10,364 nt of DNA, taken from the NCBI GenBank assembly GCA_003021325.1, contig PXQM01000115.1:1-10364 (forward strand). Reading direction: 5' to 3'. Positions 1 to 10,364 of the stretch are shown here, in pieces. The notes beneath the pieces are model-generated. The model did no database searches and was not told the origin of the DNA. It saw only the letters and a list, made by a program, of their open reading frames with translations. The DNA is from Halobacteriales archaeon QH_10_70_21 (GTDB lineage: Archaea > Halobacteriota > Halobacteria > Halobacteriales > Haloarculaceae). Positions within the stretch are counted from its first letter, which is position 1; each line of letters begins with the position of its first letter. Both the position numbers and the translations under genes were made by a program.

Positions 1-113
1 GTTCCGATTCGAACGAGCGTAACGAGCGTCCGAGCTTCGTACTCGGTCAGCCCCAACTCGATGAGGTCATCGGACAGTGCCACCATGAGTTGTTCGTCGG
101 TTCTCCCACTCAT
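1..113 (-). CDS. TrmB-type transcriptional regulator, N-terminal fragment
   Basis: The reading frame starts at the ATG at 113-111 and runs off the left edge, so only 37 residues are visible. They include the segment LGLTEYEARTLVTLVRIG, which matches the opening of the TrmB winged-helix domain (known pattern: LGLTEYEA followed by a hydrophobic helix). In archaea, TrmB-like proteins are DNA-binding regulators, often of sugar or central metabolism. The ligand and targets cannot be judged because the C-terminal part lies outside the window. An internal ATG at 86-84 is possible, but the upstream ATG is preferred because a TATA-like box sits about 26 bases before it. The next gene on the + strand is divergent, across 333 bases. 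Confidence 0.75.
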   Translation of the reverse strand, partial: MSGRTDEQLMVALSDDLIELGLTEYEARTLVTLVRIG

Positions 114-135
114 GAGTCGACGAACGGTTCGCGGC

Positions 136-143
136 TATTTAAC
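136..143 (-). promoter_or_regulatory. TATA-like box for the TrmB-type gene
   Basis: Read on the - strand this is TTAAATA, centred about 26 bases upstream of the ATG at 113. This is the spacing expected for an archaeal TATA box driving a leaderless transcript. The match is by eye only. Confidence 0.6.
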
Positions 144-446
144 TTCGCCCCCGGACTCCCGTACCCGGAATGGACGGGAAGAGTACGTGAAACAACCCGT
201 TGATGCCCGCACCGCTTCACGTTCCGGCGGACGAACACCAGGCAGTCGTGGACGAGTTTGCACGGTCTCCGGCCCGGCGGCCGTCTCCGAGACCCCCTGA
301 ACGCGCGGGCGAGGTGCCGAAGTTCCGGACACGTGTTGAAACGTTTCGAACCGTGACGAGAATGAAGTTCTTTCACACCGATCCGTTCTCGCTTTCTGAA
401 CGGAAATGGGGACCTTGACCGTACACCCGACGTGTGTCCACCCGCA
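144..446. other. Intergenic stretch without a recognisable gene
   Basis: This lies between the promoter of the TrmB-type gene and the broken cold-shock gene. An open frame at 200-418 (+) starts MMPAPLHVPADEHQ but becomes Arg/Pro-rich, has mixed third-position composition and resembles no family I know. It could be a decayed fragment, but I would not call it a gene. No convincing TATA box is seen at the expected place (around 420) for the cold-shock gene, which fits that gene being inactive. Confidence 0.5.
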
Positions 447-690
447 ATGGCAAACGGTACGGCCGACTTCTTCGACGACACTGGCGGTTACGGTCTCACT
501 CTCGACCGAGGACTCTGACGAGGACGTTTTCTTCCACATGGATGACGTTGTCGGCGAGGATTTCACCGAGGGACCCGAGATCGAACTCGACATCGAGCAG
601 GCACCGAAGGGCCCGCACGCGCCGAACGTGGTTCGTGCACAACGGTGGACACTGGCGCACCTGGCGGCACGTGACACGAACGGTTTTTGA
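447..690 (+). pseudogene. cspA: Cold-shock domain protein gene with a +1 frameshift and lost stop
   Basis: The ATG at 447 opens a frame reading MANGTADFFDDTGGYGLT, the start of a haloarchaeal cold-shock protein (OB-fold, single-stranded nucleic-acid binding). That frame hits TGA at 516-518. The rest of the domain continues in the next frame from about 502: STEDSDEDVFFHMDDV, then a segment ending IEQAPKGPHAPNVVR at 636. The DVFFH motif corresponds to the RNA-binding RNP2 motif; the RNP1-like GGYGF(I) stretch is where the break falls. One extra base within about 495-501 explains the shift. After NVVR, where family members of about 64 residues normally stop within a residue or two, the frame runs on for 17 residues of unrelated sequence to the TGA at 688-690. 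So there appear to be two lesions, plus no clear promoter. A sequencing error could explain the frameshift but not the tail. The family identification is confident; inactivity is inferred. Confidence 0.85.
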
Positions 691-722
691 GCTCGTATTC
701 AGCGCGGCGCCAGCGCCGGACT

Positions 723-2703: not shown

Positions 2704-2710
2704 TTTGAAG
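2704..2710 (+). promoter_or_regulatory. TATA-like box for the universal stress protein gene
   Basis: TTTGAAG is centred about 28 bases upstream of the ATG at 2735, consistent with a leaderless start. Confidence 0.45.
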
Positions 2711-2734
2711 TGCGTGGGCCGACGAGCAGGTGGT

Positions 2735-3172
2735 ATGTACGATACCGTGCTCCTGCCGACGGACGGCAGCGACGGTGCTGCGGAGTCGCTGGACCACGCC
2801 GTCGGCGCCGCCGAGGCCTACGACGCGTCGCTGGACATCATCTCGGTCGTCGACCACCGTGTCGTCCTGGCGGCCGACGCCGACGAGAAGGAGTCCGTTC
2901 GCGCGGACCTGACCGACGACGCGTCCGACGCGGTCGCGGTGCTTGCCGACCGGGCCCGCGCCGCCGGCATCGAGACCACGACCGCGACCCCGGAGGGCGT
3001 GCCCCACCGCGAGATACTGGCCTACGCGGAGCGGGCCGGCGTCGACCTGCTCGTCCTCGGGACCCACGGCCGGACCGGCCGCGAGAAGCGCCTCAACCTC
3101 GGAAGCACGACCGAACGCGTGGTGAAGGCCGCCGACAGGCCGCTGCTCGTCGTCGACATCGGCGGGGAGTGA
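2735..3172 (+). CDS. Universal stress protein (UspA family)
   Basis: The 145-residue product is a single Usp domain of normal length. It begins MYDTVLLPTDGSDGAAES, the beta-1/loop of the family with the conserved Asp (D10) that contacts the nucleotide. Near the C-terminus is the ATP-binding loop GTHGRTGREKRLNLGSTTE followed by RPLLVV, the last strand. The loop has the spacing G-x2-G-x10-G-S, one residue longer than the textbook G-x2-G-x9-G-S/T; I recall haloarchaeal members with this longer form. UspA proteins are cytoplasmic stress-related nucleotide binders, usually dimers. The start is fixed by homology and by the TATA-like box near -28. It diverges from the winged-helix regulator and converges on the hydrolase gene, with stops 22 bases apart. 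Confidence 0.93.
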   Translation: MYDTVLLPTDGSDGAAESLDHAVGAAEAYDASLDIISVVDHRVVLAADADEKESVRADLTDDASDAVAVLADRARAAGIETTTATPEGVPHREILAYAERAGVDLLVLGTHGRTGREKRLNLGSTTERVVKAADRPLLVVDIGGE

Positions 3173-3194
3173 CGGCGCGGGCAACCGGCGGGTC

Positions 3195-3974
3195 CTACTC
3201 GACGGTGTTCCGGAGCGTCCCGATTCCCTCGTACCGGATGGCTATCTCGTCGCCCGGTTCGAGCAGCCCGGGATTCGCCGGGCTACCGAACGAAACCACG
3301 TCGCCGGGCCTGAACGTGAACCGCTCGGAGAGAAACGAGACCACCTCGCGGGGCTTTATGAACATGTTCTCGGTGTTGTCGTGCTGGCGCCGATCGCCGT
3401 TGATGTGCGTCTCCATCTCCAGTCCGACCGGGTCGATGTCGGTCGCGAGCACCGGGCCCAGCGGCCCCGAGGCGTCGAAGGCCTTCCGGGCGGTCCGGCG
3501 CTCCTGGTCGAGGCAGTCCAGGTCGTTCAGGACGGTGTAGCCGCGGACCACGTCGTCGACGTCCGCCTCGTCGACGTGCTTGCATTCGGTGTCGATGACG
3601 GCCGCCAGTTCGCCCGCGTACGTCAGCTCCTGGGAGAACCCGGGGTACGGAATCGGCGTCTCCGGGGGGTGCAGCGACACCGGCGGCTTGATGAAGAAGT
3701 CCGGCTCCTCGGGCACCTCGTAGTCCATCTGGTCGACCGTCTCGCCGAAGTTCCGTCCGACGCAGTAGAAGACGCCGGGGTCGCAGGGCGCACGCAGGTC
3801 GTACTCGTCGGGGGGGAACGCCCCCTCGTCGGTGCGAACGGTACCGTCGTCCTCGTACTCGCCCTCGAGGACGCCGGCGTCGGTCTCGATACGATGGGGC
3901 TCTCGTCGGCTCCCGGCACCGGCGCGGCGTGGACCGTCAGCCGGAACTCGCCGCTCGGGAGCGAGACCTCGCAC
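3195..3974 (-). CDS. Fumarylacetoacetate-hydrolase-family protein, normal start lost
   Basis: The family-like part runs from 3896 to the stop at 3195 (about 233 residues). It contains CVGRNFGETVDQM, a substrate-pocket region DFFIKPPVSLHP, TYAGELAAVID with the metal-binding Glu, and a C-terminal FTFRPGDVVSFGSPANPG. These are hallmarks of the FAH superfamily (metal-dependent hydrolysis, decarboxylation or isomerisation of acyl-pyruvate-like substrates); the actual substrate is unknown. The N-terminus reads HRIETDAGVLEGEYEDD, which is where relatives start within about four residues, yet no ATG, GTG or TTG lies in frame there. The first in-frame start upstream is a GTG at 3974-3972, inside the sensor gene, which would add 26 foreign residues. 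The next start downstream is an internal ATG at 3728, past the CVGRN motif. The body looks intact, but expression is doubtful. It overlaps the 3' end of the sensor frame. Confidence 0.8.
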   Translation of the reverse strand: MRGLAPERRVPADGPRRAGAGSRREPHRIETDAGVLEGEYEDDGTVRTDEGAFPPDEYDLRAPCDPGVFYCVGRNFGETVDQMDYEVPEEPDFFIKPPVSLHPPETPIPYPGFSQELTYAGELAAVIDTECKHVDEADVDDVVRGYTVLNDLDCLDQERRTARKAFDASGPLGPVLATDIDPVGLEMETHINGDRRQHDNTENMFIKPREVVSFLSERFTFRPGDVVSFGSPANPGLLEPGDEIAIRYEGIGTLRNTVE

Positions 3975-5074
3975 TCGGCGCCGTGAATCGGCCGGCTGGC
4001 GTTCGAAACCACCTCCCAGAGATGCTCGCCGTCGGCGATTGGCTGGCCGCTGTGACCCCGGAACGTGACGGCCAGCTCCGACGGTGACAGCCCCTCGAGC
4101 GCCGACCGCTCCGTTCCGAAGGCCGCCGTGGCCTCGCCGTTCACCCGGCGAATGCGCCCGGTCTCGTCCATGAGCAGGAGCGGCATGGGGGTGACCTCGA
4201 ACACGCGCCGGGTGAGGTCCTGCTCGCGGCGGAGCCGTCCCTCCGTCCGCTTCCGTTCGGTGACGTCCTGGGCGTTGACGATGACTCCCTCGACGGCGGG
4301 GTTCTCGAGGTGGTTGGTGGCTCGGACCTCGACGAAGCGCCACCCGCCGCCCCGTTCCCTGAAGCGGAGCTGGACCGAGAGCGTGATTCCGGGCGACTCG
4401 AGCACCTGTGCGAACGCCCGTTCGGCCCGGTCCAGGTCGTCCTCGTGAACGTACTCGAAGGCCGACTGACCACGGAGCTCGCGAGGTGTGTACCCCACCA
4501 CGTCCTCGACGGACGGACTGACGAACTCGAACTGACCGGCCCCGTCGAGCACGCCGGTCACCGCGGGCGAGTACTCCAGTAGCGCCCGGAGCCTCGACCG
4601 CTCGCGTTCGACGGCGGTCCGGGCCTTCGTTCGCGCCGCCGCGGCCTCGGCCGACGCCCGCCGGGCGTCGACGACGCTCTCGACGCGGTGGGCGAGGCGG
4701 ACGAACCGTTCGGACCCGCCGCGCTTCGCCATGTAGTCGGTCACTCCCAGCGAGATGGCCTCGCTGGCGACGCTCTCGTCGCCCTTCCCGGTGTACAGGA
4801 TGAACGGCAGCTCACTGGCGACGACCCTGACCCGGCGGAGCAGCTCGAGGCCGTCGACCCTCGGCATGTCGTAGTCGGCGACGACGCAGTCGAACTCCGA
4901 CAGCCGGTCGGTGACGGCCGCCGGGTCGGTCTCCGTCGCGACGTCCAGCCGGTCGCTCGCCTCCTCGAGCCCCTCTGCAGTGAGCTCGCACAGCTCCTCG
5001 TAGTCGTCCACGTAGACGACCGATATCTCCTCTTGTTGGGCCTCCCGGTCCGTTCGCCCGGTCTCCGTAGACAT
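3623..5074 (-). CDS. Receiver-PAS-PAS signalling protein, C-terminus replaced
   Basis: From the ATG at 5074 the frame encodes 483 residues. Residues 17-135 are a response-regulator receiver: acidic pair D23/D24, phospho-acceptor D67 in VVADYDMP, T95 in LYTGKG and K117 in YMAKRG. Residues about 140-165 form a charged coiled linker. A PAS domain follows (about 160-275, with FVSPSVEDVVGYTPREL and ending NAQDVTERKR) and then a second PAS (about 283-393). After residue 395 the sequence turns into Arg/Ser/Thr-rich nonsense because it reads the hydrolase gene out of frame, down to a stop at 3623. Haloarchaeal proteins of this type often end in HisKA/HATPase kinase domains; none is present here. The likely reading is a cytoplasmic two-component protein cut short by a deletion. 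The start is supported by an excellent TATA box. Confidence 0.85.
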   Translation of the reverse strand: MSTETGRTDREAQQEEISVVYVDDYEELCELTAEGLEEASDRLDVATETDPAAVTDRLSEFDCVVADYDMPRVDGLELLRRVRVVASELPFILYTGKGDESVASEAISLGVTDYMAKRGGSERFVRLAHRVESVVDARRASAEAAAARTKARTAVERERSRLRALLEYSPAVTGVLDGAGQFEFVSPSVEDVVGYTPRELRGQSAFEYVHEDDLDRAERAFAQVLESPGITLSVQLRFRERGGGWRFVEVRATNHLENPAVEGVIVNAQDVTERKRTEGRLRREQDLTRRVFEVTPMPLLLMDETGRIRRVNGEATAAFGTERSALEGLSPSELAVTFRGHSGQPIADGEHLWEVVSNASRPIHGAECEVSLPSGEFRLTVHAAPVPGADESPIVSRPTPASSRASTRTTVPFAPTRGRSPPTSTTCVRPATPASSTASDGTSARRSTRWTTRCPRSRTSSSSRRCRCTPRRRRFRTPGSPRS

Positions 5075-5098
5075 GTGAGGGTTACACACACCCCGGGG

Positions 5099-5104
5099 TT
5101 TAAA
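5099..5104 (-). promoter_or_regulatory. TATA box for the receiver-PAS gene
   Basis: TTTAAA (palindromic), with TTTCTT-rich flanks on the + strand, is centred about 27 bases upstream of the ATG at 5074. It is one of the best promoter matches in the window and implies a leaderless mRNA. Confidence 0.75.
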
Positions 5105-5179
5105 TTTCTTGTCGCCGTCGGAAACTCCAAAGCACTGCGACGCGGTTTCTACCACCACGGTCGGGACGGCGACCGGGTT

Positions 5180-6095
5180 CTACGTCCCGCCGAGCGGATG
5201 TGCGACGGAGAGAGCCCCGGAGACGACCGAGAGCGTGGCCGATTCCAGCGGCCGCTCGATCGGGGTTCCGTCGAGTTCTACCGGGACCGTCGCGTCGGCT
5301 TCGACCGTCACTCGCTCACCCGACCGGTAGCTGACGGCCGGATGCTCGAGGAGCCGGCCGGCCCGGGGCGACCGAAGAAGCCCGACCGAACCGCTCAGTC
5401 CGGCCGGTTCGACCGCCAGGGCGTGGAGCAGTCCGTCACCGGGGCGGGACTCCGACAGCAGCGCGAACTCGCTACCGCGGTAGCGGCCGCCACCGACGGC
5501 GACCAGCCGGGCGGCGCCCTCGAACAGTCCGTCGCCGTCGACGGCCACGGAAACCACCACCGGGTCGGCGGCGACCGCAGCACCGGCAGTCGACAGCAGG
5601 TACGCGAGCGGTCCGGGCAGCCACCGCAACCGCTCGGCACCGTCGAGCGCGCTGCGGAAGAGCCCGACCGTACATCCGAGGACGAAGTACGTCTCCGGTA
5701 TCGGGGGCGAACTCCCTATCCGGCCCACCTCGAGCGGACGGGTTTCGAATACCGTCCGCGAGCGCGCGGGCGACCCGCTGCCAGTCCCGGCGCCCGTAGA
5801 GGTGTCGGTACATCGAGTTCCCGCGTCCGGCCGGTACGACGAACAGCGGCGGTTCGTACTCGCTCTCGACGAGTGCCGCCGCGACCTCACGGAGTGTCCC
5901 GTCGCCGCCGACGACCACGAGGTCGCCCCACGCGGCCTGCTCGCGGACGGCGACGGGTACGTCCGCCTCGCCGGTGGTGATGCGGGCGTCGACCTCGGCG
6001 TCGGGGAAGCAGCCCGCGAGGGTCGCAAACAGGGTTGCGGCGTCGCCGGACCCGGCGTGTGGATTGACGACCGCGCGGACGCCCCCTGGCCTCAT
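5180..6095 (-). pseudogene. Diacylglycerol/lipid kinase-like gene with a +1 frameshift
   Basis: The ATG at 6095-6093 starts MRPGGVRAVVNPHAGSGDAA, followed by LVVVGGDGTLREV (residues 59-71) and VPAGRGNSMYRHLYG. These are the NPxxG, GGDGT and PxGxGN blocks of the DAGK catalytic domain (YegS/LCB5-type lipid kinases, ATP-dependent). The frame is good for 115 residues to ALADG (codon at 5753-5751). It then continues correctly only in the next frame as FETRPLEVGRIGSS, down to SVAHPLGGT and the stop at 5180-5182. One extra base within about 5747-5754 explains this. Rejoined, the protein is about 304 residues, normal for the family. As written, translation would end at 5472 after 207 residues with a foreign tail. 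Its ATG overlaps the stop of the MmgE/PrpD gene (ATGA), implying translational coupling. Sequencing error is a real alternative. Confidence 0.85.
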
Positions 6096-7675
6096 CCGGG
6101 GCCCCCGAGTCCGGTCAGGGCCGCGAGCGAGACGGTCTCGGTTTCGTCGATCGCGAGCAGTTCGTCGGCTCTGCGGCGGGCGGTGGATTCGCGCACCCCC
6201 GCCCCCGCCAGCCCGGTCCAGTACTTCCGGCGCGCGACCGCACGGTGCTCCGAGAGCGGCTTCCCGGCGAACCCGGAAGGATGCTCGACCGTTGCCTGGA
6301 CGGTCCGCCCCGCTGTCGTCGTGACCTCGACACGGGCGCCCATCCGCTTGTCCGCCTCCGAGAGGTCCGTCGGGAGCGGCCGCTTCCGGAGGAACCGCGC
6401 CAGCATCGGCAGGCGACGCAGCGCCGCCATCGGCCCGACCGTCCTTGCCGCGTACCCCACGACTGGAAGGCCGACGCGCCGGAGCATCGCTCCGACCGGC
6501 ACCTCCGAGTTCAGTGCCGCGACCGTGAACTCGCTGTCGTGGTGGACGAACACCCGGTCGGCCAGCCGCCAGACGTTCTCGTCGCGGGTCCGCTCGCCGA
6601 CCTGTCGCGGCGTGTGCTCGCCGTCGGCCAGCGCGACCGCGACGTTGAACGGAACCGTAAACGAGAGCGCCGATACCGGGCTCTGCGGACCGTCCAGGTA
6701 CGGCGCGGCGCGCTCGTCGACCCCGGTGGTGAGCAGCGAGCCGTATACGTCGACGCGCCGGACGGTCGTGCGCCCACGGTCGAGCCGGCCCCGTGCCTCG
6801 AGGGCCGCCTCTATCGGTGCTGTCACGTAGGCACAGCCTGGCACCGGCTTGACCGTCAGTGCCCGGGTATGCCATCGGTCACCGAACCCCCCGAGGAACT
6901 CCGGGAGCGGGTGGTCCGCGAACTCGTCGAGGAAGCCGCCCTCGGCTTCGGCGAGCCGTGGGGCGCCCGTCAGACCGGCGCGGGCGCTCTCGACGGCCTC
7001 GAGACCGCTCGCGATCGGTTCGCTCGCGCTCCAGACCTTCGCATCGGCGCCCAGGAACGGCGGCTCAAGCGGCCAGGGTGGCTGCAAGAGCGCCGTTCCC
7101 AGAGCGTGCGCGAGCGTCCCGGCGTCGTCGTCCTCGACCACCGCGCGACCGACTGCGGCACCGACGGCGTGGATGTACGCGGCTTGCTGGCCCCGGAAGG
7201 GCCCGATTGCGACCGCGGAGGCGAGCCTCGCGGCCACCTCGTTGGCCGCGACCTGGGCGACGAGGAACCGCCGGCCGCTCGCCCCCGACGCCTCGGCGTA
7301 CGTCAGCGGGACGAAGACGGCACTGTGTCCCGTGTGGCCGCCGAGGACCGTGTCGTCGAAGTCGAGGGCCATCGACAGGCCGGCGTTGCCGCGGGCCGCG
7401 CTCGCCGGCGACAGTTCGGTTCCGTCGACCAGGGTCGCGCCGTCCCCGGCGTCCCCCTCGGTCGCCGTCTCCACGATGCTCCCGCCGAGCGGGTGGTCCA
7501 GCGTCCAGACCGCAGCGCCGACGGTACTGGTCAACTGGGCCCTCGCCGCCCGGCGGACCGGTGCCGGAACGTCGCGGTAGGTCAGGTCGGCCGCCCAGGC
7601 GGCTGCCCGGTCCAGGAACGGCCCCGGTTCCGGCCCCTCGCTACCGACGAACGGCAGCCGGTCGGTCAGACTCAT
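6092..7675 (-). CDS. MmgE/PrpD-family protein
   Basis: The product is 527 residues, longer than the usual 450 or so. Family-like segments include an N-terminal helix bundle, the block ALDFDDTVLGGHTGHSAVF (residues 103-121), a helical stretch with AANEVAARLASAV, and KPVPGCAYVTAPIEAALEA (276-294), corresponding to the conserved KPYPxC region. Members are cytoplasmic enzymes such as 2-methylcitrate dehydratase and cis-aconitate decarboxylase; substrate specificity cannot be assigned. About 60-70 residues near the C-terminus (AARTVGPMAALRRLPMLARF onward) look like an insertion and may explain the extra length. The stop overlaps the start of the lipid-kinase gene (ATGA). The SRAP gene lies 42 bases upstream on the same strand, so a three-gene transcript is possible. 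Only a weak CCTAAG element lies near -30. Confidence 0.82.
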   Translation of the reverse strand: MSLTDRLPFVGSEGPEPGPFLDRAAAWAADLTYRDVPAPVRRAARAQLTSTVGAAVWTLDHPLGGSIVETATEGDAGDGATLVDGTELSPASAARGNAGLSMALDFDDTVLGGHTGHSAVFVPLTYAEASGASGRRFLVAQVAANEVAARLASAVAIGPFRGQQAAYIHAVGAAVGRAVVEDDDAGTLAHALGTALLQPPWPLEPPFLGADAKVWSASEPIASGLEAVESARAGLTGAPRLAEAEGGFLDEFADHPLPEFLGGFGDRWHTRALTVKPVPGCAYVTAPIEAALEARGRLDRGRTTVRRVDVYGSLLTTGVDERAAPYLDGPQSPVSALSFTVPFNVAVALADGEHTPRQVGERTRDENVWRLADRVFVHHDSEFTVAALNSEVPVGAMLRRVGLPVVGYAARTVGPMAALRRLPMLARFLRKRPLPTDLSEADKRMGARVEVTTTAGRTVQATVEHPSGFAGKPLSEHRAVARRKYWTGLAGAGVRESTARRRADELLAIDETETVSLAALTGLGGPG

Positions 7676-9698: not shown

Positions 9699-10294
9699 CC
9701 GTCGGCCGACACCTCCCGACGCTCCCGCGCTCGACCGACGACTGGCGGCTCATGGGCCGGACGGCCCGGCTCGTGCTCTCGGTCCCGGGATACGCCGTCG
9801 TCGCCGTCCTCGCGGCCGCAGTCGGGCTCACGCTCTTCGTCTTCTCGCTGAACCTCCCGCTGGTCGGGCTGGCGCTGACCGGTACGCTCCCGGGGAGTGC
9901 CCGTCTGACGATTCTGGCGAAGCTGTACCCGTTCGTCGGCACGGGCTTCGGCCCCGTCCAGGGCGGACTCCTCGTCGCCGTGGCTGCCCTCTTCGGCGTC
10001 GACGTGGCGATGGTGACGTACCACCTGCGCGAGCACGGCGTCTCGCTGTCGGGCGGCGGCGGGAGCGTCGTCGGTGCCGTCCTCGGCGCGCTCGGTGCGG
10101 GCTGTGCCGCCTGCGGGTCGGCGCTCCTGGTCGGAATCCTGTCGCTGTTCGGCGTCTCGACGACGCTGCTGTTTCTCCCTCTCGACGGCCTGGAGTTCGC
10201 ACTGCTCGCGCTCGTGGCGCTCCTCCTGTCGATTCACTGGGTGGCCGACGGGATGCGCGGCGGCCGGGTAGCCGGCTGTCCCGTCGAGCCCTGA
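9695..10294 (+). CDS. Multi-span membrane protein with a CxxC motif, partner of the DsbA-like protein
   Basis: The product is 199 residues with about four or five hydrophobic spans: around 26-50, possibly 54-64, 88-108, 123-151 and 155-182. The fourth holds GALGAGCAACGSALLVGILS, with C137 and C140 spaced as CxxC inside the hydrophobic stretch; a third Cys, C195, is at the tail. The protein does not match DsbB, VKOR or CcdA by motifs I can see. A redox-active CxxC in a membrane protein translationally coupled to a DsbA-like gene nevertheless suggests an electron-relay partner that re-oxidises or re-reduces it. That role is inference; structural cysteines remain possible. The start overlaps the previous stop as ATGA. 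Confidence 0.8.
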   Translation: MTVGRHLPTLPRSTDDWRLMGRTARLVLSVPGYAVVAVLAAAVGLTLFVFSLNLPLVGLALTGTLPGSARLTILAKLYPFVGTGFGPVQGGLLVAVAALFGVDVAMVTYHLREHGVSLSGGGGSVVGAVLGALGAGCAACGSALLVGILSLFGVSTTLLFLPLDGLEFALLALVALLLSIHWVADGMRGGRVAGCPVEP

Positions 10295-10295
10295 T

Positions 10296-10364
10296 GTGGA
10301 CTGTCGCGAGTTCGGGCGGTACTGGCTCGTCGCGTGCGGGGGTTGCAGCGGACCCGACCGACCC
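10296..10364 (+). CDS. Start of a possible next gene with a CGGC motif, cut by the window
   Basis: A GTG one base after the previous stop opens a frame with no stop to the window end (23 codons): MDCREFGRYWLVACGGCSG, then PDRP. Of the three + frames here it has the strongest third-position GC bias, and it contains aromatic residues and a C-x2-C pair (ACGGCSG). If real, it is a third member of the redox operon. An ATG in another frame at 10294 (MWTVASSGGTG) is a weaker alternative. I do not recognise a family. Confidence 0.35.
   Translation, partial: MDCREFGRYWLVACGGCSGPDRP

Follow-up and report, generated by a model that had tools for sequence, protein, structure and literature searches.

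The window (the whole stretch of DNA that was analysed, 10,364 nucleotides from Halobacteriales archaeon QH_10_70_21) carries on its minus strand, in the 5′-to-3′ direction, an MmgE/PrpD gene, a lipid kinase gene, a receiver-PAS-PAS sensor gene starting with the ATG at 5074, and a gene of the FAH hydrolase family ending at 3195. The features are as follows, with P0121 and P0001 being the database proteins described below.

7675-6092, minus strand: MmgE/PrpD gene.
~6095-5180, minus strand: YegS-type lipid kinase gene, with DAGK catalytic and YegS_C domains.
5099..5104, minus strand: TTTAAA, a putative TATA-like element 24 nt upstream of the sensor ATG.
3890..5074, minus strand: native part of the receiver-PAS-PAS sensor, 395 aa from the ATG at 5074 (Pfam Response_reg, PAS_4 and PAS); 393 of the 395 residues are those of P0121.
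3894..3974, minus strand: foreign leader of 27 residues, judged by sequence and composition, that the hydrolase would carry if the GTG at 3974 were used.
3890..3893, minus strand: probable deletion junction, where the codons of sensor Val395 and hydrolase Arg5 overlap, placed by comparison with nine relatives, P0121 and P0001.
3623..3889, minus strand: tail of the sensor ORF beyond the junction (88 residues and a stop), where hydrolase codons are read out of frame.
3195..3893, minus strand: FAH-family hydrolase (PF01557) from native residue 5 to the stop, without its native start and first four residues.
2705-3172, plus strand: universal stress protein (Usp) gene, on the opposite strand to the hydrolase.

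The sensor frame is open from 5158 to 3623 on the minus strand (an ORF of 511 aa), and the hydrolase frame is open on the same strand from a GTG at 4343 to 3195 (382 aa, or 259 aa when counted from the GTG at 3974). Since both frames are open across the break, the lesion is invisible from the open frames alone and is revealed by homology. In protein alignments, the last residue with native sensor similarity is Val395 (codon 3892-3890), while the first with hydrolase similarity is native Arg5 (codon 3893-3891). The two codons have two bases in common and lie in different frames, such that both similarities break within the same four bases. The passage from sensor to hydrolase is therefore confirmed as described in an earlier sequence-only reading, which had placed both transitions at about 3890-3905.

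The closest database protein to the window sensor, P0121, is an intact sensor of 432 aa that ends SPIVVAVDHAEPL, represents 24 member sequences and is 99% identical to the window. Residues 1-387 are identical and the only differences before the break are at residues 388 and 391. Beyond the break position P0121 continues for nine residues and then ends. Judged from this protein, the sensor appears to have lost its last nine residues, so that the loss of a C-terminus, as previously proposed, holds but is a short one. In profile searches the window sensor retains its receiver and PAS domains (Response_reg, PAS_4, PAS_3, PAS and PAS_8). Past Val395 it is out of frame, and a complete second PAS domain and the native C-terminus are absent; P0121 has two PAS_4 stretches vs. 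one in the window. The 88-residue tail contains 21 Lys and Arg residues vs. a single Asp or Glu, compared with 47 vs. 72 in the native sensor. None of its 8-residue pieces occurs in the 325 database proteins returned by the protein searches, and 6-residue pieces occur in five distant PAS proteins among the 325, at scattered places.

It should be noted that the two sensor residues that differ from P0121 (388 and 391 of 395; 3902-3913, minus strand) adjoin the junction, being no more than eight residues from it. These substitutions could stem from mutagenic repair, or from a poor-quality sequence end joined by the assembler.

The intact counterpart of the hydrolase is P0001, a protein of 236 aa that starts MKLARIETDAGVLEGEY (MKLARIET), represents six member sequences on six contigs and is 99% identical to the window, with 229 of 232 residues identical and three different. 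P0001 and P0121 are both cluster representatives and may derive from different strains. Comparison with P0001 suggests that the window hydrolase has lost its first four residues. The rest is complete: the frame 3974..3195 on the minus strand matches FAA_hydrolase (PF01557) with 160.3 bits (cut-off 23.9; E 6.9e-47) over profile positions 3-213 of 214, i.e. the whole catalytic domain, which in P0001 spans residues 47-235. The window hydrolase resembles HpaG/HpcE-type FAH hydrolases/isomerases of known structure (1gtt, 2dfu and 1wzo) in having the whole catalytic domain. It differs from that type in lacking the start and four residues, and neither protein reaches the NCBIfam equivalog cut-offs (for the C-terminal subunit of HpaG, P0001 123 bits and window 120 bits vs. 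276). Between the junction and the ATG at 3728 the hydrolase frame contains no ATG, GTG or TTG. The next in-frame starts are this ATG, which corresponds to native residue 60, and later ones, all within the catalytic domain. Across the family of genome G001, a hydrolase match at E ≤ 1e-80 is found in 97 of 146 genomes, with no internal stop in the matches listed.

In nine of nine related genomes carrying the pair (L001-L005 and L055-L058), sensor and FAH hydrolase are two complete and separate genes, with a sensor stop and a hydrolase ATG. The count includes genomes with a sensor match of more than 300 aa and more than 40% identity upstream of the hydrolase. Shorter or less similar sensor matches (e.g. 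L011 and L019) are not counted, nor are L022-L025, L030-L033 and L038, which are second copies of genomes already included. The window has the same gene order and strands as these Natronomonas-related haloarchaea, namely: lipid kinase, sensor, FAH hydrolase and then Usp on the opposite strand. In contrast to the window, which lacks all of these elements, the relatives have a sensor stop, then a spacer of 24-179 nt, replaced in L055 by a second sensor, and a hydrolase ATG. An ATG four to five codons upstream of the Arg codon is found in 35 of 36 distinct relatives, the remaining one (L021) being one that could not be evaluated.

Measured between the two break positions, the nine relatives in the above order have 87, 90, 141, 215, 90, 1367, 91, 76 and 221 nt, that is, 76-221 nt in eight of them and 1,367 nt in L055. 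This last genome (G125, probably Natronomonas marina) is the closest of the nine (hydrolase 88%, sensor 73%), and its distance is long because a second, paralogous sensor of 410 aa stands between the first sensor and the hydrolase. The two L055 paralogues (7830-5329, minus strand) are tandem receiver-PAS-PAS genes between lipid kinase and hydrolase; their receivers are 83% identical and their PAS parts 47%, a contrast that suggests either gene conversion or selection that differs between the halves. In a tree built from 64 sensors, the window sensor and P0121 belong to a clade of 21 rows (support 100/100), together with the first sensor of L055 and with L001, L002 and L005; the second sensor of L055 lies far from it. 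A hybrid origin of the window sensor from two tandem paralogues was also considered and rejected, as the sensor differs from P0121 at no more than two residues before the break and clusters with the first L055 sensor, not with the second.

The near-identical intact proteins and the nine relatives with two complete genes support the earlier suggestion of one deletion between tandem genes on the same strand, and the extra DNA that it foresaw between the genes of a relative is present in all nine. We consider it likely that a real and recent net deletion in a Natronomonas-related haloarchaeon took out the DNA separating codon 395 of the sensor from codon 5 of the hydrolase. What would have gone is probably the last nine sensor codons and stop, the spacer, and the start and first codons of the hydrolase. 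As the closest relative has a second sensor between the genes, the parent may have had one or two, and the deletion would measure either about 0.1 or about 1.4 kb (~75-220 nt from a one-sensor parent, ~1.4 kb from an arrangement such as that of L055). Judging from the body of the hydrolase, which is without decay, the event looks recent.

The same out-of-frame arrangement, which would have spoken against a deletion had relatives shared it, is found in none of those examined. Outside the window, there is no deleted allele among the best 120 of 1589 hydrolase matches, among the best 120 of 149 sensor matches (the search scored the 7997 candidates sharing most words) or in the nine related genomes with both genes. 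A search of viral contigs found no relative. Forty-eight plasmid records matched, none across more than 80% of the query; the best 20 of them are 66-76% identical, chiefly under FAH, receiver or PAS genes, and one further record falls in the 80-90% band. A literature search covering titles and the openings of abstracts returned nothing on the subject.

An artefact of assembly or library preparation is a possible but less probable account: two contig ends would have been merged, or a chimeric molecule formed, with the loss of ~75 nt or more, and the organism would have both genes intact. It would agree with the return of only intact forms among the database proteins and with the clustering of the two sensor substitutions at the break, and the window may be a metagenome record. 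The DNA of the relatives argues against it. At the positions matching the junction, none of the nine has a base common to both sides, and exact words shared within 40 nt of the break on either side are at most 5-10 bases long (eight relatives scored). With no repeat of assembler length at the break in these genomes, a k-mer collapse is unlikely to have produced this junction unless reads spanned it. Moreover, eight other window genes (AAA_33 kinase, DUF7521, HTH, Usp, MmgE/PrpD, SRAP, RDD and thioredoxin-like; window 1-700 and 9700-10364 set aside) each align to one or more relatives without a change of frame.

The same comparison, which concerns the DNA of relatives rather than that of the parent, leaves unsupported the CCATCGT-like direct repeat that the sequence-only reading had offered as a microhomology at the break. 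A match of three to four bases at the junction would require a CGT Arg codon, which 7 of 35 relatives have; the closest has CGC.

A further lesion lies nearby. The lipid kinase is split: ORF 6875-5472 has the frame of the DAGK catalytic domain and ORF 6028-5180 that of YegS_C, and the frame switch is at ~5742-5749 (minus strand). P0241, a protein of 182 aa that is 97% identical to the lipid kinase and represents 23 member sequences, has its start at the equivalent of 5728. Of the 85 matches returned, the best full-length one has 74% identity. The start of P0241 directly after the switch suggests that sibling strains share the frameshift, which would make it older and no error of this record, a reading that depends on the gene caller's choice of start for P0241.

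Upstream of the hydrolase, the sequence AACACGTAAG (with up to two mismatches) lies within the 70 nt upstream of the start codon in 14 of the 20 relatives whose hydrolase identity is at least 79.5%, and is missing in six; below 79.5% it occurs in 1 of 15. Overall 15 of 35 relatives have it, starting 33-34 nt upstream of the ATG. The background, taken from these loci with the true sites left in, is 146 of 14,400 stretches of 70 nt. With at most one mismatch it stands 33-34 nt before the FAH ATG in L001-L006, L008, L012, L030, L031, L033, L035, L036 and L038. It is retained in L006 and L012 despite a different upstream gene. In L001, L002, L005 and L056 the sensor stop codon lies inside the element. 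The proteins of these four end in NNT, GNT or GNA, and so do 26 of the 53 sensor homologues (P0121-P0173). A position 33-34 nt before the ATG fits the spacing of a haloarchaeal core promoter with a leaderless transcript, and the element is probably the core promoter of the hydrolase. Searches for bacterial-type promoters and terminators in 3100-5300 gave none, the models being bacterial and uninformative for an archaeon.

No such element precedes the hydrolase in the window, where the two hits at two mismatches are at 6270 and 8355, vs. a chance mean of 3.5. The deletion probably took the core promoter of the hydrolase as well, so that use of the GTG at 3974 would need a transcript coming from the sensor. 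This amends the earlier proposal that this GTG might still allow a hydrolase with 26 foreign residues: the codon is indeed in frame, the foreign residues number 27, and the sensor would have to provide the transcript.

A functional arrangement would take this form, with the sensor promoter driving a hydrolase from the GTG at 3974 or a frameshifted sensor-hydrolase fusion, and we regard it as very improbable. Young regulatory rewiring kept in one strain, in which the hydrolase has acquired a sensor-derived leader and come under the promoter and start signals of the sensor, is similarly remote. The open frame back to GTG 4343 and the undecayed hydrolase body, with 3 of 232 residues different from P0001, would be in keeping with function; the lack of decay is equally explained by recent loss. 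Ten of the 120 listed homologues start more than four residues (up to 39) before the conserved AR motif, which may mean that an N-terminal extension of the FAH protein is as such tolerated, or that the start was wrongly called. Against this, 6-residue pieces of the 27-residue leader are absent from all 325 proteins returned, and coverage of the 483-aa query stays at or below 82% in each of the 120 sensor homologues listed. In composition the leader is basic (7 Lys and Arg vs. 3 Asp and Glu), and no GGAGG-like signal is seen in the 15 nt before the GTG. BLAST matches extend into the leader in several relatives, but the matching bases there precede the family ATG. The next in-frame start, the ATG at 3728, again falls inside the catalytic domain.

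We return to the favoured reading, a recent net deletion. The sensor would most likely carry a junk tail of 88 residues in place of its last nine, and the hydrolase, without a start of its own and probably without its promoter, would most likely no longer be made. The gene is therefore probably silent, the first in-frame start after the junction being one that lies within the catalytic domain. Recent deletion pseudogenes of prokaryotic strains likewise show a single small deletion, intact close siblings and no further decay, and the window has no feature that distinguishes it from them in general.

Taken together, these results open no wider question and most likely describe an ordinary two-gene lesion, a loss of function at the level of the strain that is too recent for the remaining hydrolase sequence to show decay. 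The comparison with relatives further shows a sensor stop codon inside the conserved element before the hydrolase in at least four of them. The locus cautions against annotating the 511-aa sensor ORF or the 259- or 382-aa hydrolase ORF as natural fusion proteins, and offers a clear case in which one probable deletion at strain level disables two neighbouring genes together.
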